Assembly (NCBI GenBank): GCA_019038695.1 | Contig: JAHOYZ010000012.1 | Location: forward strand, 62,001 to 126,000 | DNA: 64,000 bases | Source: Candidatus Zixiibacteriota bacterium | GTDB lineage: Bacteria; Zixibacteria; MSB-5A5; GN15; FEB-12 | Direction of reading: 5' to 3' | Part shown: piece by piece, positions 2,373 to 16,453 of the stretch | Layout: each line of letters begins with the position of its first letter | How positions within the stretch are numbered: position 1 is the stretch's first letter | The notes under the pieces: generated by a model | The model's input: the letters and a program-made list of their open reading frames with translations, nothing else | Told to the model about the DNA's origin: nothing | The model's database searches: none | Position numbers and translations under genes: made by a program

Positions 2373-4943
2373 CTATTTCGCAGAAATCACGAAATTGAGA
2401 TTACTCACGATAGCACCGTTCTCAACTGCCTCCATCTCAAAATTGATTCCTTCCGGTTCGCATTTGTACCCCAGGCGGTCAAGCTGTTCGGAATCAATGT
2501 AGGCGCGGTAATTGCCGGGGATGAGACCCAGATAGAAAAACTCCCCGTTGCTGAATGTCATTACCTCGGTCACGATTTCCAGATCAAGATTATAGAATAC
2601 GACTGTCAATCCACCCTGGGGAGTCAGGCCATCAACTATCTTTCGATGAACAAATCCTGAAGCTTCTCCGGCCATCACAATCGGTACGTCGATAGCTGTC
2701 ACCACGTTGGGGTTGAACGCGACACGGTAATTCTCATAAAGTGGTTTGAGCATCGGGTCATCCAGGCTGAGCGGATCGATACTGACCAGATGCTCGGCGT
2801 ACGGGTTCAGGCCATCGTAGTAGTACATCCTGTTGCTTCCGCGTGGTCTTTCTCTACCGCCGCGAATACGGGCTCGAAGTCCCTCTACAATGCGCTCATT
2901 CTTGTCAAGCATGCCGTTGTGGTTGTCGTCCATAAAGGGACGTACGACCATAGCTGAGCGTCCGACACCGTAGTAACGATCCAGCATGAACCGTCCTCCG
3001 GTCTGATCGTAGCGCACGGATCCTTGCTGAACCTGGGTGATATTGGTAGCGCGGCTGGTCGTAGCCACACGGGTTGTAAACGATGCGAAGTTGGTGAAAA
3101 TATTAAGCGACACGCGGAACATATCGCTATTGGAATGCATCTCGCGTTCATAGGAGAACGAAATCTGTCCGGTGCGGAATAGCCGTCGGCTATAAAAAAT
3201 AGCCACTGAAGCCACACGGCGTTTACTGTGGTCGTAGACGACTCTAAACTGCGGACGCAGCCAGCGAGAGAAAGAAACCGAAGCGAACAATTCGCTTAGA
3301 AAGCTGGTTCCGGAGAAATTGATGTAACGGCTGATGTTGTACTTGCCGAGGTAGTAAAGGTTGACCTTACGGAGTGAAGCTGTGCCGCCGAAATTGATCG
3401 TAATCAAATCACGTAAAGGATACCGGTCCCAGGTGGCGTAGGAACGAAGGCTAATCGGTCGGCCTGCTACTCGCATGGGGGCTGTCACAGAGAGAGCGTA
3501 GCTGTCGTGTTTGCCAGGACCGGTGCGATATTGACTCCGGCGATAACTGGTAAGACTGCCGTCAATACTAACCAGCGACGGTTGACTGAAATTCATAGCC
3601 ACTTGCGAGGCATAGCCCGGTGCATGACCGGCGTTAGCTGTCAGGTTACCGGCCAGTTGTACCGTAGCCTCACCTGCCACAGAGACTGGTTCGGCGTCAG
3701 CGCGATCAAGTGGAATATCAGTTAGTAGCCCCACCGTCACCCGGTTGGAGACACCATAATATGTCGCCACCTGCGTGTATTTGGAATTCAATAACTGGTT
3801 CTGAGCGGCACCCACCGCGATAGCATACTCTATAGAGTTGCGTGGAACGAGATTGTACGGAATGTGGATGTACTGCTCCTCGGTGCGTATCTCACCCGAC
3901 GGGCCATACAGCTTGAGGGTGACGATAGAAGAACCATAGTTGGCATCTACAAAAAACTCGTATTCCCCGGACGGGCCGGTGTGCGTAAAATCTACCAGCG
4001 TGCGATCAATGTACAGCTCAACTTCCCAACCTTCACCCGGTCGACCGGCGATGCGAGTGGTCCTGAAAAACTTCCTCTGTACCTGCGGCCGGTTGGTGAT
4101 CATCCCCCCCCGTATGGTTCGCGACAGGATGCCCCCCGTGTAAACATCGCCGATTTCCCCCTGGATGAGATACGGGCTGTAGTCGAAGAAATAATGCCAG
4201 TGCAGTTTGAGTTGATCCTCGCTCATCCCGGTACGTGTATTCCCGGCTCCCGACACGCTCAGATCTCCGCCCAGCAGCATGCTCCCCAGGTTGAATCCAA
4301 AGTGGTTAACCTTGCTACCGACCGGATTGGCGGCCAGGCTCCAGTCGAGAATACATCCCCCAAGAAGCTGACGGCGATATGGTACCCATTTTACCCTCCC
4401 CAGCTCTTTCTCTTTTTGCTGAAGACGCTTCTGCGCCATCGCACGTTTCAATTTCTGGTAAGCAGGGTAATCTTCATCAAGGGGCAGGACAACGCGCAAG
4501 TCGGCGAAAATAAATGTCACCGGCAGTCCCAACAACGGTCCGAAGAGACTTTCTCGGAGAAATAGATCGGTGGTAGTCAGAAGGAAATCAGACGGGTGCA
4601 GGGGAGTGTCGCGTCCATGCAATCGCACTGTCAGCTTATCAAGATCAATGCGAAACTTGTTCTTGTTGGAGATGACATAACCACTGAAACGGCGCTTGTC
4701 CATTTCCGGTTTGATGTTGAGGTCCAGAAGGTCAAAAATGCCCATCACTGGCAGGAATACATCCTTGCCGTCATACTGGGCAAAAATATCAGCATTGATC
4801 AAACGGCGAACCTGGAAATTAATTGGAATTTCCTCAAACACCTGTGCAGTGTCAGCGGCCTTTGAAATACTCGTTCCTAGCGGACTCATAGCCAGGATTG
4901 CAGCCGTGACCAGACCGATCAATGTCAATCTCATGATATTCAT
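2373..4943 (-). CDS. Outer-membrane usher of a chaperone/usher fimbrial system
   Basis: This 856-residue protein has a signal peptide (cut near SISKAADT), an N-terminal domain of about 120 residues, a long barrel region rich in alternating aromatic strands, and small C-terminal beta domains. The best usher signature is in the middle: GEIGDVYTG, then RTIRGGMITNRPQ, then WEVELYIDRTLV, GEYEFF and EEQYIHIPY. This parallels the FimD-type barrel/plug block. Length fits ushers (about 800-900). Near residue 690 is a calcium-loop-like segment, DDNHNGMLDKNE. The periplasmic chaperone gene lies 27 bases upstream, preceded by pilin-like genes, so this is the last gene of a fimbrial operon. It is divergent from classical proteobacterial ushers and probably belongs to an alternative class. 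Confidence 0.75.
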   Translation of the reverse strand: MNIMRLTLIGLVTAAILAMSPLGTSISKAADTAQVFEEIPINFQVRRLINADIFAQYDGKDVFLPVMGIFDLLDLNIKPEMDKRRFSGYVISNKNKFRIDLDKLTVRLHGRDTPLHPSDFLLTTTDLFLRESLFGPLLGLPVTFIFADLRVVLPLDEDYPAYQKLKRAMAQKRLQQKEKELGRVKWVPYRRQLLGGCILDWSLAANPVGSKVNHFGFNLGSMLLGGDLSVSGAGNTRTGMSEDQLKLHWHYFFDYSPYLIQGEIGDVYTGGILSRTIRGGMITNRPQVQRKFFRTTRIAGRPGEGWEVELYIDRTLVDFTHTGPSGEYEFFVDANYGSSIVTLKLYGPSGEIRTEEQYIHIPYNLVPRNSIEYAIAVGAAQNQLLNSKYTQVATYYGVSNRVTVGLLTDIPLDRADAEPVSVAGEATVQLAGNLTANAGHAPGYASQVAMNFSQPSLVSIDGSLTSYRRSQYRTGPGKHDSYALSVTAPMRVAGRPISLRSYATWDRYPLRDLITINFGGTASLRKVNLYYLGKYNISRYINFSGTSFLSELFASVSFSRWLRPQFRVVYDHSKRRVASVAIFYSRRLFRTGQISFSYEREMHSNSDMFRVSLNIFTNFASFTTRVATTSRATNITQVQQGSVRYDQTGGRFMLDRYYGVGRSAMVVRPFMDDNHNGMLDKNERIVEGLRARIRGGRERPRGSNRMYYYDGLNPYAEHLVSIDPLSLDDPMLKPLYENYRVAFNPNVVTAIDVPIVMAGEASGFVHRKIVDGLTPQGGLTVVFYNLDLEIVTEVMTFSNGEFFYLGLIPGNYRAYIDSEQLDRLGYKCEPEGINFEMEAVENGAIVSNLNFVISAK

Positions 4944-4970
4944 AGCGCGTTATCGGAAATTCCCCAGGTG

Positions 4971-5834
4971 CTATTCGACAGCCACTAGTTGGGAAATTTT
5001 GTTACCTTTGATCATGTCCTCGGGGGGGACGTCGTTGCGCCCGTCGGGTGTAATCTCCAGATCAACCCGGAGGGGCTTCTTGAACTCCTGATCGGGAGCG
5101 ATCCCGAGTTCAATCCGGCGTCGAAGCCGATCGTAAACCGCTAGATTGGTGCTATTAATGCTCATCTCCTGGCCGTCAGCATCAATCAAACGGGTCTTGA
5201 TTACGCCCATGTATGATGTGTTACCCAGGCTGGACATGTCGACAAGTACGTGAACCTTGTTGTCCGCTTGTACCGCCCGAGCACTTAGCAGATCCAGGCT
5301 CGAGACAAGGTCGCCGGTGCGATACTTGACCATGATAGCCATCTGCATGATCATGTTCAGAGAGGTACTGATCTGTCCTTCGACGTCCGTGGCTGGTAGT
5401 ACAGTTTCACCCTCTTTCGACGACACCACAATTCGCGCCCAGTATTCACCGTCAACCAATCCCTGTGGTGGTCGGGCTACCAGTCGCACTGTCTGGGAAC
5501 CCTGGGCAGGTACCATCACTTTTCGTGGAAACGCCCTGATCCAGTCCATAGCTGACTTGGAATCACTTACCGACGAATCGGCCAGTGAGATGGCTATGTT
5601 GCCCAGACTGTCGGACATGGGCAGACCATAGGAAATGCGAATCGTTACCTCTGTAGGAGCATCAGAGGGATTCTTGACGATTATTCGATCCGTTCTTTTC
5701 TGGTCGGACATGAATACTACCGTCGGAGCCACCATTACTCCTGCGGCTGCCTTTACAGCCAGAAGGAAAAAGCAACCAAGCACCAGGGCTAGCCGGAAGC
5801 CCGTTGTTGTCCAGGGGAAACGTTTGTTCATCAT
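4971..5834 (-). CDS. PapD-like periplasmic fimbrial chaperone
   Basis: The 287-residue product has a signal peptide (ATG after GGAGATATT; hydrophobic core LALVLGCFFLLAV). The first Ig-like domain carries family features: an opening strand GVMVAPTVVFMSDQKRTD, then IIVKNPSDAPTEVTIRI, and the PAQGSQTVRLVARP strand that corresponds to the chaperone G1/F1 region. In this pathway the chaperone completes the fold of pilins by donating a strand and delivers them to the usher. It sits directly upstream of the usher and downstream of two pilin genes in one co-directional run. Its C-terminal domain is weakly conserved and the protein is a little longer than PapD/FimC (about 220-240). Confidence 0.75.
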   Translation of the reverse strand: MMNKRFPWTTTGFRLALVLGCFFLLAVKAAAGVMVAPTVVFMSDQKRTDRIIVKNPSDAPTEVTIRISYGLPMSDSLGNIAISLADSSVSDSKSAMDWIRAFPRKVMVPAQGSQTVRLVARPPQGLVDGEYWARIVVSSKEGETVLPATDVEGQISTSLNMIMQMAIMVKYRTGDLVSSLDLLSARAVQADNKVHVLVDMSSLGNTSYMGVIKTRLIDADGQEMSINSTNLAVYDRLRRRIELGIAPDQEFKKPLRVDLEITPDGRNDVPPEDMIKGNKISQLVAVE

Positions 5835-5876
5835 AATATCTCCATAAAGTCATCTACTAATCATGTCAACTCAAGT

Positions 5877-6440
5877 TCAGCTGCCGTCGTAACTGACACT
5901 GATCACAATATCCGCCGAATAACTTCCCGCCCCTTGTTGAACACTTGGGATCACCTTGCCTCCAAGATACACTTTCGTATTGCCGTTGGTCGCCCCGATA
6001 TTGGCAGTTGGCAGAGAGTACGGATTGACCCCAACCCAGGCGCCACCGCCCGGTGTATCGGGTGTGCCGGCCAGAGAGTCGATAGTGCAATCCGAACTGC
6101 TGAAAATAATCGGCATGTGAGCACCGGTCGCAGTGTACAGATATTCGGGCAGGATGAACTGAACCGATATACCTGCTCCATCCTCGCCGCTGATAGTGAA
6201 TACAGCCGCCGAAGTGTCCGAACCGGTAGCGGTACGGTTGACTTTGACGGGTACGCCTTGCATTACATTGCCGAACTTCAACTGCGTATCCGCTGAGATC
6301 GAAATTGGTGTCACCATCGTGGCCGAAGCTGAGGAGGTTCCAACGGCTTGTGCCAGAAGGGACGGTCCTACAAGGAGACTCGTAACCAGCACTGTGGCAA
6401 GTAGTCCTATTTCCGATTTTTGCCATGAACAGCAATCCAT
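5877..6440 (-). CDS. DUF4402-type pilin subunit 1
   Basis: Exported protein of about 187 residues. The ATG at 6440 is preceded by GGAG and gives a sensible signal peptide ending near SLLAQA; a longer frame reaches 6485. The mature N-terminus (SASATMVTPISIS) has the alternating hydrophobic pattern of a donor strand, followed by the family block LKFGNVMQGVPVKV. The C-terminus GSYSADIVISVSYDG has the Gly plus near-terminal Tyr pattern that fimbrial chaperones recognise in pilins. Four paralogues lie upstream. Next to the chaperone gene, so a likely structural subunit of the fibre. Confidence 0.65.
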   Translation of the reverse strand: MDCCSWQKSEIGLLATVLVTSLLVGPSLLAQAVGTSSASATMVTPISISADTQLKFGNVMQGVPVKVNRTATGSDTSAAVFTISGEDGAGISVQFILPEYLYTATGAHMPIIFSSSDCTIDSLAGTPDTPGGGAWVGVNPYSLPTANIGATNGNTKVYLGGKVIPSVQQGAGSYSADIVISVSYDGS

Positions 6441-6532
6441 GCTGATCTTTCTCCGGTGTGATTCCATTTTCCTCGCAAGCCTCACCTAAGCCTAAGGCCG
6501 TGTCTCCCGGCCGGGCAACAAACATTTTATCT

Positions 6533-7141
6533 TTACGTTCCATTGTATGTGACGGTCAGAATGATATCGCCGCTGTAGCTTCCCGATCTCTGGTAAATCG
6601 ATGGGATGACCTGTCCACCCAGATAGATGCTGGTACCGGCTGTGCCTACCGTAGCCGCCGCAGGCAGACTGCGAGGGTCAGTATTCTGCCAGCCTTTTGT
6701 GCCTGCCATTCCGGCCGGATTATCGGCGCCGGTGGTGTCAACCGAGCAGTCGGTAGCGGAGAAAGTCATTATCATCCGATCGCTTCCGTCCGAAAGTACC
6801 AGATACTCCGGCAACTGAAAATACATCGTGATCGGCGAGTCCTTCTGACCGGTGACCTTGAAAATGCCCGCATCTGTAGAGCTATTAGCCACCGTCTTGG
6901 GGACTCCCTGAAAGACATCACCGAAAACGAGCGAAGCGCTGGATGCTACGGTCAGGGCTGATAGAACGGTGGCAGTAGCGGTTCCAATAGCCACTTCCTG
7001 TGTATAGACGGACGTCGTAGCTACAAGAAGCACCGCAACCACAACCAAGGCCAGGGCAGCGAATCCTATTCGGCGTTGTTCAAACCTGATCTTATCCATA
7101 ATCAGTCCATTGTTCAAAAAAGGAACACGCGGATCCTTCAC
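6533..7141 (-). CDS. DUF4402-type pilin subunit 2
   Basis: The frame begins at a GTG at 7141; an ATG at 7099 is an alternative and gives a shorter signal region. The hydrophobic signal (ALALVVVAVLLVATT) is followed by a donor-strand-like segment (GTATATVLSALTVAS) and the family block LVFGDVFQGVPKTV. It ends SGSYSGDIILTVTYNG, the same chaperone-recognition-like C-terminus as its paralogues. Two internal Cys, one in TDCSVDTT, are not in the usual pilin disulfide position. It is co-directional with subunit 1 and the chaperone/usher pair, and separated from the next pilin upstream by a strong terminator. Confidence 0.65.
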   Translation of the reverse strand: MKDPRVPFLNNGLIMDKIRFEQRRIGFAALALVVVAVLLVATTSVYTQEVAIGTATATVLSALTVASSASLVFGDVFQGVPKTVANSSTDAGIFKVTGQKDSPITMYFQLPEYLVLSDGSDRMIMTFSATDCSVDTTGADNPAGMAGTKGWQNTDPRSLPAAATVGTAGTSIYLGGQVIPSIYQRSGSYSGDIILTVTYNGT

Positions 7142-7333
7142 ATATATTGATCGTCAGCCTGTGCAGAAATTTAACAGCAAAAGATGATAAAAATTGCGGT
7201 ATTCGTTGCGTTCTGAAACAGTGTCAGGATCAGGTTGCGGGTTTGATCAAGAGGATTGTTTCATCATGAAAGGGGTTGAGTTAGTTTAAGTAGAGGCAGC
7301 GATGTCGAATAATGAAGGTAATTTGCCCTCCAC

Positions 7334-7367
7334 AAAAAAAAGGGAGAGCCTTGAAGGCTCTCCCTTT
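7334..7367 (-). terminator. Intrinsic terminator after the third pilin gene
   Basis: Read on the minus strand: AAAGGGAGAGCC, loop TTCAA, GGCTCTCCCTTT, then a run of eight T in total. The 12-bp perfect stem and T-tract make a strong rho-independent terminator 22 bases after the stop of the 7389-7973 gene. It separates that gene from the downstream pilin-chaperone-usher genes, so the pilin at 7389-7973 can be made in excess. Confidence 0.9.
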
Positions 7368-7388
7368 AAATTCGTCGGACTACAAATA

Positions 7389-7973
7389 TCAGTTGCCGTT
7401 GTACGACACGCTCAGGACGATGTCGCCGCTGTAGGTGCCGGAGGGCTGATACATTGATGGGATTACTTTACCACCCAGGAAGACGGACGTAATAACTGTC
7501 GGGCCCTCAGTTCCACCGATGACCAGGGCAGCTGGGAATGAGCGTGGATCCTCATCAACCCAACCGTCGCCTACAACCACCGTCAGCGGGGTTTTTGAGT
7601 TGGTTGTGTCGATGGCCATATCGGTGCTGCTGAATGTGATATTCATCTGTGCACCAGCGGAGCTGGACAAGTACTCCGGTAGCATAAACTGGGCTGTAAC
7701 GCCCGCGCCCGCTTCACCGGTGATAGTGAAGATAGCGGCTGTGGTGTCGCCACCGGTAGCGGTTCTTGCTACCGTTTTGGGGACACCGGGGAATATATCG
7801 CCGAATTCCAAGTTTGTGCCAGCCGCTAAAACGATAGCACTCAAGACCGTTCCGTCAGCGGTGCCGGTAACGGCTTGCTGTGCCGAGCCGGTGCTCGCAC
7901 TCACAAGTACCATTAGACCGATCGCGATGGCCAGAACTCCGGGATGCAGGAAGCGAAATCTACTGAGGTTCAT
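7389..7973 (-). CDS. DUF4402-type pilin subunit 3, probable major subunit
   Basis: The 194-residue product has a very good ribosome site (GGAGGATGAC before ATG) and a clean signal peptide ending SASTGSAQ. The mature protein starts with a donor-strand-like segment (GTADGTVLSAIVLA), then LEFGDIFPGVPKTV, LPEYLSS, and ends SGTYSGDIVLSVSYNG. A strong terminator directly follows. The near-ideal ribosome site and private terminator point to the most abundant subunit of the fibre. This is inference from expression signals, not from sequence function. Confidence 0.7.
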   Translation of the reverse strand: MNLSRFRFLHPGVLAIAIGLMVLVSASTGSAQQAVTGTADGTVLSAIVLAAGTNLEFGDIFPGVPKTVARTATGGDTTAAIFTITGEAGAGVTAQFMLPEYLSSSAGAQMNITFSSTDMAIDTTNSKTPLTVVVGDGWVDEDPRSFPAALVIGGTEGPTVITSVFLGGKVIPSMYQPSGTYSGDIVLSVSYNGN

Positions 7974-8148
7974 GTCATCCTCCAGGATTGTTTATACATT
8001 CAATAACTTTTTTTTACGACTCTGATTGTCTTGTTGTATCCTTTAGTCGCCACAAGTGAGCAATCCGATTACCCCTAATGGGCAACAAATCACCACCAAT
8101 GAGTAAGTTGATTGAATTTTGAACAACCCTAACCACCAGGGCAAACAG

Positions 8149-8625
8149 CTAAAACCCGGTGTATTGCACAGTCAGAACGATGTCAGCTGTGTAGGAGCCA
8201 GCAGGTTGCCTCAAACCAGGGACAGCTTTGCCTCCCAGCCAGACGGTAAGACCCGCTGACCCTAAGTCGTATGTAAGTGTCTGCCACGGATTTAGATCGT
8301 CAAAGCTGGGGCTGGCCTGATTGGGGGAGGGGAAGGAATCAATGGCACAGCCGTCGGAGAAGAAGATTAGCTGGATCGTGTTGGCACCGGATGAAAGGTA
8401 GGTCGGCAGGCTGAAATCAAGCGTTACTTCAGACCCGGCATCGCCGCCAACGGTGAATTCGGCGGCATCGGTGGAACTTTTGTCGATTGTCTTGGGGATA
8501 CCGGGGAACATAGTGCCGAAGGTCAGGTCACTGCTGCCCGAAACAGACTCATCAGCCGCAAAGACAAAGGTAGGTAAAATCAGGGTCAACAAAGCGATAA
8601 GTAATGTGCATCTTGATAGCGACAA
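8149..8625 (-). CDS. DUF4402-type subunit lacking a donor strand, possible tip pilin
   Basis: The shortest paralogue (158 residues), with an apparent TTG start and signal MSLSRCTLLIALLTLILP. After the predicted cut (VFAADE) only about ten residues (SVSGSSD) precede the family block LTFGTMFPGIPKTI. The alternating hydrophobic donor-strand segment present in the other four is missing. The C-terminus SYTADIVLTVQYTG is kept. In chaperone/usher fibres a subunit that cannot donate a strand can only sit at the tip, so this is a candidate tip subunit (inference). Start codon uncertain. Confidence 0.6.
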   Translation of the reverse strand: MSLSRCTLLIALLTLILPTFVFAADESVSGSSDLTFGTMFPGIPKTIDKSSTDAAEFTVGGDAGSEVTLDFSLPTYLSSGANTIQLIFFSDGCAIDSFPSPNQASPSFDDLNPWQTLTYDLGSAGLTVWLGGKAVPGLRQPAGSYTADIVLTVQYTGF

Positions 8626-8701
8626 AACGTTACCAGAATTAGGGTTACTTACTATGGTAGAAAACTATCATGGTCACCGATCGTCAACAACAATCCCGCC
8701 G

Positions 8702-9118
8702 TCAGTCGTGGGGGAAAACTACCGTCAGAGTGCAGGTTTCTGTCGCGCCAGAAAGATTAATGATCATGGAATCGAGAGGCATGAGCAAAGCAGAGCCGGT
8801 CACATATCCCCGGGTGGGATGGATACGATAGGGACTAATGGATTGTTCAAATATACCGCCGTCGGTCTTGAACACCACCTGTGCTGCTGCAGATCTGGGC
8901 ATACGCAACATCAGGAGCGGCTTTGTATTGGTTGATATTTCGGTCGTCGAGGGGTTGGTCATCCAAAGTGTTCCGGCCGGACTGTTCACGGTGGCACGGG
9001 CGGAAATACGAGCAGTGGCCGATTTGTTATCAGCCGCCAATACTATGTCTGAATGGAAAACAACAGGTTTTGTCAGGACATAGATTACACAATAACAGAA
9101 AACGACAAAAGTTCTCAT
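8702..9118 (-). CDS. Small exported protein in the fimbrial cluster
   Basis: 138 residues with an N-terminal hydrophobic segment (VVFCYCVIYVL) that could be a signal peptide. It lacks the FG-x3-G-x-P block of the DUF4402 paralogues, so it is not clearly one of them. It has an alternating segment (SATARISARATV) near the mature N-terminus and ends in a hydrophobic strand (TCTLTVVFPHD), so a beta-sandwich subunit is plausible. It lies between two pilin genes on the same strand. A fibre base, terminator or accessory subunit are all possible; family not recognised. Confidence 0.5.
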   Translation of the reverse strand: MRTFVVFCYCVIYVLTKPVVFHSDIVLAADNKSATARISARATVNSPAGTLWMTNPSTTEISTNTKPLLMLRMPRSAAAQVVFKTDGGIFEQSISPYRIHPTRGYVTGSALLMPLDSMIINLSGATETCTLTVVFPHD

Positions 9119-9410
9119 GGCGGTCCCAGATGCAGTCAGGTTGGTACTGCATCAAGATACCGCCCAAGGCGATTTTGTCAAGAGCCCTTAGGGGCTTGCT
9201 GATAAAGTCATTGTGAGGAGTGAAAACCTTCAAGTCTGAAAGACATGGCAATCTCATATCGCGAATGTTTGCAGGGATAAGATCCCCACGACTGGTAAGG
9301 CCGGCTTCGTGATGACAAATGGAACGGTTTTTCTTACAGGCCCTTAAGCCGGGATCAGTCTCGGGTGTTACGTTGATTGCTCGACGTATCTGTAGTTCTG
9401 TCCGGTTCGA

Positions 9411-9935
9411 TCAGTTCCCCGTCAGAGTTACTATAATCTCAACATCTGCCGAGTAGTTGCCTCCGCTCTGTCCGACCGAAGGGATTGTTTGGCCACCAAT
9501 CCAGACGGTCATACTGCCGTCAATGGCCGACAGGTCAACCAGGTTGGTATTGAGTGGGTTCAGGTTACCAGCCGGGGCCGCCTGTCCACCACCAGTGCCG
9601 TCCTCGTAGGAACCGTCAGTACCCAAGAATGTTATGGGCATAGCCGCCGTTGCAGAGTGCAATGAATCCGGAAGCGTAAAGGTAATCTGTACTTCCGCGG
9701 CCGATGGTCCGGTAATACTCCATTCGCCGGCAGTACCAACATCGGTCTTAGCCACTGTTTCCGGCGTTCCAGGAGTAACATTGCCGAAATCGAGATCGTT
9801 GGTGCCGGTTACGGTCAGAGCAGAAATCACAGTAGCCAGGGCTTGAACTGTGGCACTTTCCTGAGCCTGTAGTCCTGGCGCTGCAACTCCTAATACCAGC
9901 GCCAAGCAGACTGTAATGATCCTTATCCTAAACAT
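9411..9935 (-). CDS. DUF4402-type pilin subunit 5
   Basis: The start is taken at the ATG at 9935 because AGGGAG lies at good spacing and a clean signal peptide follows (ITVCLALVLGVAAPGLQAQ). The open frame continues upstream to 10034 without signal-peptide character. The mature N-terminus (SATVQALATVISALTV) is donor-strand-like, then LDFGNVTPGTPETV, then LPDSLHS. It ends GGNYSADVEIIVTLTG, with Leu in place of the near-terminal Tyr. First gene of the fimbrial cluster in the direction of transcription. The 9119-9410 gap downstream shows no gene. Confidence 0.65.
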   Translation of the reverse strand: MFRIRIITVCLALVLGVAAPGLQAQESATVQALATVISALTVTGTNDLDFGNVTPGTPETVAKTDVGTAGEWSITGPSAAEVQITFTLPDSLHSATAAMPITFLGTDGSYEDGTGGGQAAPAGNLNPLNTNLVDLSAIDGSMTVWIGGQTIPSVGQSGGNYSADVEIIVTLTGN

Positions 9936-10267
9936 TATATTCACTCCCTGTAAAACATTAGTTTCTCTTGAAACACTGTTTAAGCAACGCCAATGCCATC
10001 CTGCGAAACGTACCCTATCATGTTGTGATGTCATATGTTACGATACTTGCGGTAATGTTGCTAAAGGCGTCGACAGGATGGCAATGTGTGGGGATAATCC
10101 CATAGGAGGATTGGTGAATACCTCTTTTGATGCCAACTGCTTATGCTGTGTCCGGAACCTGAGAGGTAGTCATTGCTGCTCAATGACCTTGCCTGGGTGG
10201 GCAGACTTATGTAGGTTATGATGATAACTGGAACGAAATCAGACAATCGCCTTGTCGTCAGGTAACT

Positions 10268-13998: not shown

Positions 13999-16344
13999 CT
14001 ACGGGCACGCTACCGGGGCGGGTCCTCCCGTGAACAAGTACGAAACCAGATAGGTCAGGTCGCCAATATTGATCTCGCCATTGCCGTCTATATCAGTCTC
14101 TTTTTCGCATTCTGACGGTGGACCACCAGTGAATAAGTACGCTACAAGGTAAGTCAGATCAGCGATGTTGATTTCATCGGGCAATACGTAGTCGACATTG
14201 CCACGCAGGCCGATGCAGCAGCATACATCTCCAATTCCATCGCCATTTGTATCGATCTGATCCGGATTGGGATCGTCCGGACAGTTGTCACATGCATCGC
14301 CGAACGTGTCGCCATCTACGTCAGACTGATTAGTATTGACTGAATCGGGGCAGTTATCACAGGCATCGCCAACCCCATCCAAGTCGATATCTTCCTGACC
14401 AATGTTCGCTTGCAACGGGCAATTGTCACACAGGTCGCCAACCGTGTCGCTGTCTGTGTCGATTTGGTCCGGGTTAGTTGTTGACGGGCAGTTATCAACC
14501 GAACAGATATTGCCAGGATAGCCAGGGTCGCCGTAGCCATCACCGTCAGAGTCCACACACTGCAAGGCAGTAAAGATCCTAATGAGGGAGTAATCTGACG
14601 AGTCACTTGTTGATAATTTGAACGCCTTGACGCGCCAGTAATACGTCTCGTCAGCTATAAGCGGGCTTCCAGATTGTAACAAGCTGCTGGAATCTGCTTC
14701 ACCAACAAAGACAAGTGCAGTAAAAAGTGAATCCTCGGCTACTTCTACTCGGTAGTGATCGTCGTCAAGTTTCCATGCTGTAGACCAGTTGAATCGTGGG
14801 AACTCAGAGGGAACTGAGTCACCGTTTAGTGGACTGATCAACCGCGGCTGAAGAAGTGGTAATATCCAGTTCGCGCCGTAGATACTTGGCCTGCCTATTC
14901 TGGTATCGGTCCAGACGGCATTGATATGATCCTTGAATATGGTACAGCCGATATAATCCGACAGCCCACCGCCACCGGCGGGGGAAGTCGCAATATCAGA
15001 TTCGTTCCCCGAGTGTTCGATTCCGAAAGCGAAGTCCTCTTTTGTTACAAATAGACTGGGATCAACAGAAGTGTCGGAAATGCGATGATTGGTGCTGAAT
15101 GTTTGTCCTCCGTCGAACGAATAGGCGGCGAAGAGATCAAACTTCGTATGATTGGCGGTATCAGTCCGTTGGTCATAGAATATAATTGCAAGGTTACCTT
15201 CTTCATTACAAACCAGCCAGGGGTGAAACTGATCGTACATCGCCCCCGGACCTGTCAAGTCGTCATTGACGAAAACCTTCTCTGACCATGTTTGCCCATT
15301 GTCCGTGGAACGAACGAACTCAATGTTGTAATCGTAATATGTGCTGTTGGTGACGTCCTTGGAAGCAAAAGCAACATAAATATAACCATCATAAGGACCA
15401 CCACTGATATCGGCCGTCGCAGTGGGTCCGGTAAACACTCCTACATTACCGTCGATGATGCCAAATTCGCCGTCGGACAGGGCGATTGCTTCGGGGCTGT
15501 TAAACGTTTGTCCTCCATCTGTTGACTTGGCAACCATCTCCGCTTCGTGGAACGGTTCGTAGATATATCCATTACCGAAAATATAGACTGAACCGTCGCT
15601 GCCGACTATCGGTTGCGCAAAGCCTATGTAGGTGTCCAGGGAGACCGTATCAAAGCTGGCGCCACCGTCGACCGAACGAGCGAAAATGGTCCGTGAACCT
15701 CCACCCTGCAGGTCAGACCGAAACCAGGCGAGGTATATGTTCCCGTGATTTGAACCGCCGGTCCTGTCGACAGTCATCAATGGCTTGTCTTCGAAGTAGT
15801 TCCCGATTGTATCAACAACGGTCACCGGACCGGTCCAGCTGTAGCCCTGGTCTATAGATTTGATCAAAGTGATGTGGGAGGAATCACGCCGACCTGCCTG
15901 GGCTGAGGTAGAATCGGCGTCAAGGTAGCTGATATAGAAGTTGCCCTCAGCATCTACAGCCATGGCCGGGTTGGACTGCCATTCAAAAACCTGGAAATCA
16001 GTCCTTATCAGCGAATCAGTCCATGTGTTGCCGCCATCGGTTGAGCGACCTATGCCAATCTGTCGGTATCCCAGCCGGAAGTCGCGCCAAACAGCTATGA
16101 CAATGTTGCTATCGGTGGGGCAGACCTCTATTTGCTGTTCATTCTGATATACCGTTGAGGGTGTGGACACCGGGTAGTTTGCCGGTGTTATCGGCTCCAT
16201 ATCTCCACTCACCGCGGCATTAATACTCTGCTGAATCGTGGGCTGTTCTGACGGGACGTGAATCGTGACCGCATTGGCCACCAGAGATGAAACAACCAGG
16301 AATATCATTGCGAGCAGAACTGATATTATACGGGTGTTGCGCAT
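13999..16344 (-). CDS. Secreted Asp-box (sialidase-like) protein with TSP3 repeats and dockerin
   Basis: The start is the ATG at 16344 (ribosome site GGAGGT), followed by a signal peptide (ISVLLAMIFLVVSSLVANA). The body holds at least six Asp-box turns such as RSTDGGNTW, KSIDQGYSW and RSTDNGQTW, typical of sialidase/BNR propellers. After a fibronectin-like stretch come four thrombospondin type-3 calcium repeats (DSDGDGYGD, DNCP...). A C-terminal dockerin follows, with paired NIADLTYLV and NIGDLTYLV helices and a DIDGNGEI calcium loop. No clear sialidase active-site set is visible, so the substrate is unknown. Dockerins attach to cohesins; one cohesin-like lipoprotein is encoded at 1319-2176. 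The mature N-terminus looks chimeric (see findings). Confidence 0.7.
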   Translation of the reverse strand: MRNTRIISVLLAMIFLVVSSLVANAVTIHVPSEQPTIQQSINAAVSGDMEPITPANYPVSTPSTVYQNEQQIEVCPTDSNIVIAVWRDFRLGYRQIGIGRSTDGGNTWTDSLIRTDFQVFEWQSNPAMAVDAEGNFYISYLDADSTSAQAGRRDSSHITLIKSIDQGYSWTGPVTVVDTIGNYFEDKPLMTVDRTGGSNHGNIYLAWFRSDLQGGGSRTIFARSVDGGASFDTVSLDTYIGFAQPIVGSDGSVYIFGNGYIYEPFHEAEMVAKSTDGGQTFNSPEAIALSDGEFGIIDGNVGVFTGPTATADISGGPYDGYIYVAFASKDVTNSTYYDYNIEFVRSTDNGQTWSEKVFVNDDLTGPGAMYDQFHPWLVCNEEGNLAIIFYDQRTDTANHTKFDLFAAYSFDGGQTFSTNHRISDTSVDPSLFVTKEDFAFGIEHSGNESDIATSPAGGGGLSDYIGCTIFKDHINAVWTDTRIGRPSIYGANWILPLLQPRLISPLNGDSVPSEFPRFNWSTAWKLDDDHYRVEVAEDSLFTALVFVGEADSSSLLQSGSPLIADETYYWRVKAFKLSTSDSSDYSLIRIFTALQCVDSDGDGYGDPGYPGNICSVDNCPSTTNPDQIDTDSDTVGDLCDNCPLQANIGQEDIDLDGVGDACDNCPDSVNTNQSDVDGDTFGDACDNCPDDPNPDQIDTNGDGIGDVCCCIGLRGNVDYVLPDEINIADLTYLVAYLFTGGPPSECEKETDIDGNGEINIGDLTYLVSYLFTGGPAPVACP

Positions 16345-16453
16345 GGCGAACACCTCCAGCGTGTTTGGTTTGTTCAAATGACTACTTGATTAATATATCC
16401 CCGTTTTGTCGTTTTGTCAATGCGTTGATTGGCAACGCGGTCCTTGCTCGTCG

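Follow-up and report, generated by a model that had tools for sequence, protein, structure and literature searches.

A predicted operon for chaperone-usher pili in Candidatus Zixiibacteriota, with an usher from a deep and apparently undescribed group

Introduction

Chaperone-usher pili are divided into alternative, classical and archaic groups, the archaic one occurring in a wide range of phyla (PMC9452303). In non-classical chaperones, the carboxylate anchor is formed by Arg89 of strand F1 together with a Tyr and an Arg from domain 2 (PMC4654587).

Here we analysed a 64,000-nucleotide stretch of the genome of an uncultured Candidatus Zixiibacteriota bacterium (assembly GCA_019038695.1, contig JAHOYZ010000012.1, positions 62,001 to 126,000 of the forward strand), referred to below as the window, and compared one of its loci with these groups. 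Its layout of several subunits served by one chaperone and one usher is that of archaic pili such as Csu and CupE; however, the SCPU subunits (PF05229) of archaic pili occurred in 0 of 133 genomes of this phylum, against 9 of 143 in Gammaproteobacteria. Among alternative pili (ECP, CFA/I) the locus has its best pilin match, and one chaperone arginine can be aligned with theirs in one of two alignments; with classical pili (type 1, P) it shares a predicted usher barrel with a plug. Taken as a whole, it is very probably a chaperone-usher pilus operon whose usher belongs to a deep and apparently undescribed group.

Results

Layout and distribution of the operon

The locus (2373-9935) is an operon of eight genes, all on the minus strand, in which six subunit genes are followed by those of the chaperone and the usher. 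A sequence-only reading of the window had described five DUF4402-type paralogues with a chaperone and an usher, and all seven genes were found in place. Its count of five subunits has to be raised to six, as it had overlooked the gene at 8702-9118; the terminator at 7339-7367 had also been missed. The features are, in operon order:

9411..9935, minus strand: pilin at the head of the operon, whose extension (QESATVQALATVISAL) is distinct; DUF4402 E 1e-3; orthologue in the same place in most loci
8702..9118, minus strand: sixth subunit; 138 aa, signal peptide, donor motif TARISARATV, C-terminal strand TLTVVF, hypervariable core
8149..8625, minus strand: pilin without N-terminal extension, proposed tip cap; DUF4402 E 1.4e-5; group-wide loss of the extension
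7389..7973, minus strand: first major-type pilin, candidate rod subunit by position, directly upstream of the terminator; DUF4402 E 0.006
7339..7367, minus strand: intrinsic terminator separating the first major pilin from the genes that follow it; 13-pair stem, T tract
6533..7141, minus strand: major-type pilin with N-terminal extension; AlphaFold2 model and Foldseek search
5877..6485, minus strand: major-type pilin with N-terminal extension, adjoining the chaperone gene; DUF4402 E 4e-5; conserved position
4971..5834, minus strand: PapD-like periplasmic chaperone of 287 aa in which the classical R8/K112 anchor pair is missing
2373..4943, minus strand: usher, 856 aa; signal peptide, N-terminal domain, barrel of about 24 strands with plug, C-terminal Ig-like domains

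Signal peptides were predicted from the protein sequences. The listed start of 5877..6485 is GTG, an internal ATG being the likelier start, and 8149-8625 begins with a TTG codon at 8625. NCBIfam gave no meaningful match. Elsewhere in the window, inspection by eye pointed to a large exported protein (13999-16377) with a dockerin-like C-terminal repeat (NIADLTYLVAYLFTGG).

The same gene set was recovered from related genomes as a conserved operon, with an usher homologue in 64 of the 133 Candidatus Zixiibacteriota genomes. Most of the extended loci share one order, opening with a 9411-type pilin and a small gene, continuing with an 8149-type pilin and one to three majors, and closing with the chaperone and the usher. 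Across all loci the number of majors ranged from one to four, with four in a single locus, and in some loci (L049, L084, L085, L087) the 8149-type pilin, which lacks the extension, is duplicated in tandem. No usher was found in G011, a genome from the genus of the window with 92% completeness, which makes the distribution of the operon patchy even at that level. Beyond the phylum, Ignavibacteriota and Bacteroidota have usher kin at 20-25% identity; those of Alphaproteobacteria and Vibrio are more distant.

Structure and phylogeny of the usher

None of the Pfam usher models matched the usher of the window: PF00577 gave no match at E<1, and PapC_C, TcfC and CooC_C gave none either. The same models worked in positive controls, with FimD matching PF00577 at E 1e-228, archaic ushers matched by PF00577 and PapC_C, and alternative ushers matched by TcfC or CooC_C at E 8e-10 to 7e-21. 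Apart from a weak CooC_C match in one of them (L115), the other DUF4402-associated ushers likewise went unrecognised by the Pfam usher models. A sequence search of the PDB was also of no use. The relationship emerged at the level of profiles and structure. Against six E. coli ushers, HHalign gave E 7.5e-7 with a Zixibacteria profile and 7.2e-9 with a wider one; the Zixibacteria-only profile was weak against archaic (E 0.014) and alternative (E 0.036) ushers, and the wider profile (A5) reached 1.7e-7 and 1.9e-7, respectively.

The AlphaFold2 model of the usher, built from 57 sequences (pLDDT 87.5), runs from an N-terminal domain through about six barrel strands into a small beta plug domain; another 17-18 barrel strands and the C-terminal Ig-like domains follow. 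The assignment of strands to barrel or plug is our reading of the model's strand list. Its 18 best Foldseek matches in the PDB were all FimD or PapC (E 1.7e-27, to FimD, down to 8e-13), and the next match beyond them stood at E 2e-8. The model thus points to a 24-strand barrel of the FimD/PapC type, with the plug between strands 6 and 7, rather than to a different barrel family.

A maximum-likelihood tree was built from classical (E. coli), archaic, alternative and DUF4402-associated ushers. Archaic ushers were taken by adjacency to PF05229 subunits and alternative ones by PF15976, together with EcpC; two candidate archaic loci (L149, L153) were left out because the long frame in each did not encode an usher on the strand expected. 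Classical, archaic and alternative ushers each formed a clade, and all three lay across a 100/100 branch of length 1.04 from the DUF4402-associated ushers of Zixibacteria, Bacteroidota, Ignavibacteriota, Alphaproteobacteria and Vibrio. Trees with fewer groups agreed with this split. The tree is unrooted and its branches are long, and its classical sample is one without kappa, pi and other subclades.

Within the DUF4402-associated side, the ushers of Alphaproteobacteria, Vibrio and one further Zixibacteria locus share the pilin family of the window but form a subclade of their own (100/99), and most of their chaperones, unlike that of the window, keep TRV-like and EYRSHL-like motifs. The Zixibacteria member of this subclade (L050, G033:C1:33000-47000, at 4931-10196) is a second DUF4402 chaperone-usher locus of the Vibrio/alphaproteobacterial type, in another genome of the phylum, and one of its pilins matches PF14352 at E 1.7e-18.

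The chaperone lacks the classical anchor pair

The chaperone is predicted to be a two-domain, PapD-like periplasmic protein. PapD_N matched 12 of 19 family members, and the HHalign alignment with archaic chaperones covered both domains (225 columns, probability 94, E 1.3e-7), closer than that with classical chaperones (E 4e-5). A PDB sequence search returned only a non-significant match to EcpB. As in archaic chaperones, the classical pair is missing: the Arg8 position holds V, S or I and the Lys112 position M, S, Q, A, N or T in 19 of 19 sequences, with no basic residue at either. HHalign aligned the invariant R134 of strand F1 with Arg89 of EcpB, whereas the multiple alignment by MAFFT placed a Trp (W132), two residues earlier, in that column; the non-classical anchor is thus displaced or ambiguous.

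Pilins with and without an N-terminal extension

All five pilins matched DUF4402 (PF14352) at E 1e-5 to 6e-3, though only 8149-8625 passed the Pfam cut-off on its own; the Zixibacteria proteins are divergent members of the family. When the whole genome was searched with a family profile, exactly these five were found. A PDB sequence search with a pilin gave nothing useful and HHalign of the Zixibacteria pilins with classical E. coli pilins was not significant (E 0.019), so the pilin assignment rests on DUF4402, fold and operon.

Four of the pilins carry a 23-residue N-terminal stretch ahead of the first conserved L.FG motif, compared with about 10 residues in 8149-8625. This stretch had been described as an alternating hydrophobic strand, which held in part. 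From -18 to -12, each even position was more hydrophobic than each odd one; over the whole extension, a test of beta-periodicity was not significant (p 0.3-0.5). The alternation is real, if modest. The C-terminal Gly..Tyr strand attributed to all five was likewise present, except that its final Tyr is Leu in 9411-9935.

In the AlphaFold2 model of 6533-7141 (pLDDT 88.7), the first 15 residues of the mature N-terminus (48-62) are coil, the first strand spans 63-69, and the chain stops three residues past the last strand. The single chain is not modelled as a self-complete fold: its N-terminal extension lies outside, which is consistent with an incomplete Ig-like pilin fold whose extension would serve as the donor strand. 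Foldseek matches of this model in the PDB were mostly chaperone-usher pilins (CfaB, the best by E-value, as well as CsuA/B, Caf1, FimI and PapE), at E of only about 1e-3 to 1e-2 and target-normalised TM-scores of 0.4-0.5, with some glycosidase beta-domains scoring nearly as well. These matches provide moderate evidence for the pilin fold by themselves and, taken with the operon, strong evidence.

The claim that 8149-8625 has no donor-like strand was confirmed and extended to its whole group, where the extension was missing from 43 of 43 distinct proteins after inspection of mis-cut signal peptides. Where the signal peptide was cut correctly, 8-14 residues precede L.FG in this group; for the remaining two groups the number peaks at 23. 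The mature chain begins near -8 instead of -23, and only the coil extension is gone. Having the acceptor fold and no donor extension, 8149-8625 could stand only at the start of a chain, and we propose it as a single-domain tip cap. This differs from FimH of classical pili, a two-domain adhesin; no two-domain adhesin, as found at the tip of archaic pili, was recognised in the operon. In five Bacteroidota loci (L099, L100, L104, L106, L107), a pilin-like protein is encoded between chaperone and usher, with a polar N-terminus in L099 and L106; it may be a counterpart of the cap that lacks an extension.

A hypervariable sixth subunit

In 29 of 32 distinct operons, the 9411 and 8149 types are separated by a gene of 94-165 aa (homologous gaps in L032-L049 and L060-L097); the remaining three have no space for it. 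The products carry a signal peptide and resemble one another at both ends, with SASIRATATV..P.G-like motifs at the N-terminus and IVTLIYTEN-like strands at the C-terminus. Their mean pairwise identity is 21%, whereas the two neighbouring subunits reach 53% and 55%, the chaperone 52% and the usher 43%.

None of the family models tried matched 8702-9118. With a weight matrix derived from the 9411-type extension and scored against shuffles, the donor motif was detected at p<0.01 in 25 of 29 sixth subunits, near the N-terminus and after the signal peptide; HHalign of these N-termini with the 9411-type extension gave E 2e-5. By these comparisons 8702-9118 is a fast-changing subunit that keeps the donor motif of 9411-9935 on a hypervariable body. 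Since they share a donor, the two probably enter the same kind of groove, and the short variable body combined with the kept donor strand suggests that 8702-9118 joins one fixed partner. PapH ends P pili at their base; the sixth subunit may occupy either such a basal position or one next to the cap.

A terminator with conserved position

Downstream of the first major pilin lies a strong intrinsic terminator (7339-7367), a hairpin of 13 pairs followed by a T tract. A hairpin also follows a pilin gene at the papA-papH junction. Among junctions between two majors of at least 150 bp, 19 of 30 contained a terminator, compared with a single one of the 61 other junctions of such length (Fisher p 5e-11), and dinucleotide shuffles of the 30 junctions gave 0.13 expected terminators on average. 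The stem sequences differ among relatives, which indicates that the position of the terminator is conserved and not its letters.

Discussion

We infer from the parts of the operon, and from the chaperone-usher pathway at large, that the fibre would be assembled by the familiar donor-strand exchange. The chaperone would lend each pilin the strand that its fold lacks, the usher would swap this strand for the N-terminal extension of the next pilin, and the fibre would grow outward from tip to base. Able to accept a strand and not to donate one, 8149-8625 would come first as the cap. The sixth subunit would pair with its single fixed partner, beside the cap or as the terminator at the base. The first four subunits would probably be made in larger amounts than the chaperone and usher owing to the terminator past 7389-7973, which is the likely rod subunit. 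Several observations weigh against this scheme: the periodicity of the extension was not significant over its whole length, the Foldseek scores of the pilin model are low and approached by glycosidase beta-domains, and in the chaperone the classical anchor is lacking and the non-classical one displaced or ambiguous.

Two other readings of the subunits were weighed against this scheme. The operon could encode a polyadhesin-like surface coat, with most of its pilins serving as alternative units of the shaft and 8149-8625 acting as a regulatory or periplasmic protein that stops or inhibits assembly; the variable number of majors (1-4), the single-domain cap and the failure to recognise a two-domain adhesin would all suit such a coat. 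We consider it improbable, because by donor-strand logic a subunit without extension cannot join behind another subunit, and because loss of the extension throughout the 8149 group is what a required position, not decay, would produce. That 8702-9118 is a chance or decaying frame without a product is less probable still. Its strong divergence, the lack of a family-model match and the three operons with no room for it would fit decay, but its position is kept in 29 of 32 operons, its donor motif stands out from shuffles in 25 of 29 and its C-terminal strand is conserved.

The ushers might instead be a fast-evolving offshoot of alternative (CFA/ECP-like) systems and not a separate major group. 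CfaB as best pilin match, a chaperone nearer to non-classical than to classical ones, and a weak CooC_C match (E 0.035) in one DUF4402-associated usher (L115) would all agree with such an origin, and long branches can mislead trees. This too seems unlikely to us: the six alternative ushers and EcpC cluster together, on the same side of the 100/100 branch as archaic and classical ones, and TcfC and CooC_C, which match alternative ushers at E 1e-9 or better, do not match the usher of the window. On balance, and with less assurance than for the operon itself, we favour a fourth major group of chaperone-usher systems spanning Zixibacteria, Bacteroidota, Ignavibacteriota and Proteobacteria. In Zixibacteria such systems would replace the two-domain adhesin by a single-domain cap lacking the extension, would include a sixth subunit that is hypervariable but retains its donor and last strands, and would set subunit ratios through a terminator conserved inside the operon.

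The sequence-only reading had suggested an undescribed fimbrial class in this lineage. The tree, the lack of a Pfam usher match and the literature support the class, which extends beyond the lineage. DUF4402 was not mentioned in the literature searched, and papers naming both Zixibacteria and usher were unrelated by title and abstract; subscription journals and preprints lay outside the search, so the novelty is provisional.

Through this operon, the domain of unknown function DUF4402 would gain a role, and a phylum represented here by metagenome-assembled genomes alone would gain an appendage. The chaperone-usher pathway would also widen past its classical, archaic and alternative groups and take in proteins missed by current family models. 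With an extension-less cap and a fast-evolving sixth subunit, the start, end and binding of the fibre become directly testable.
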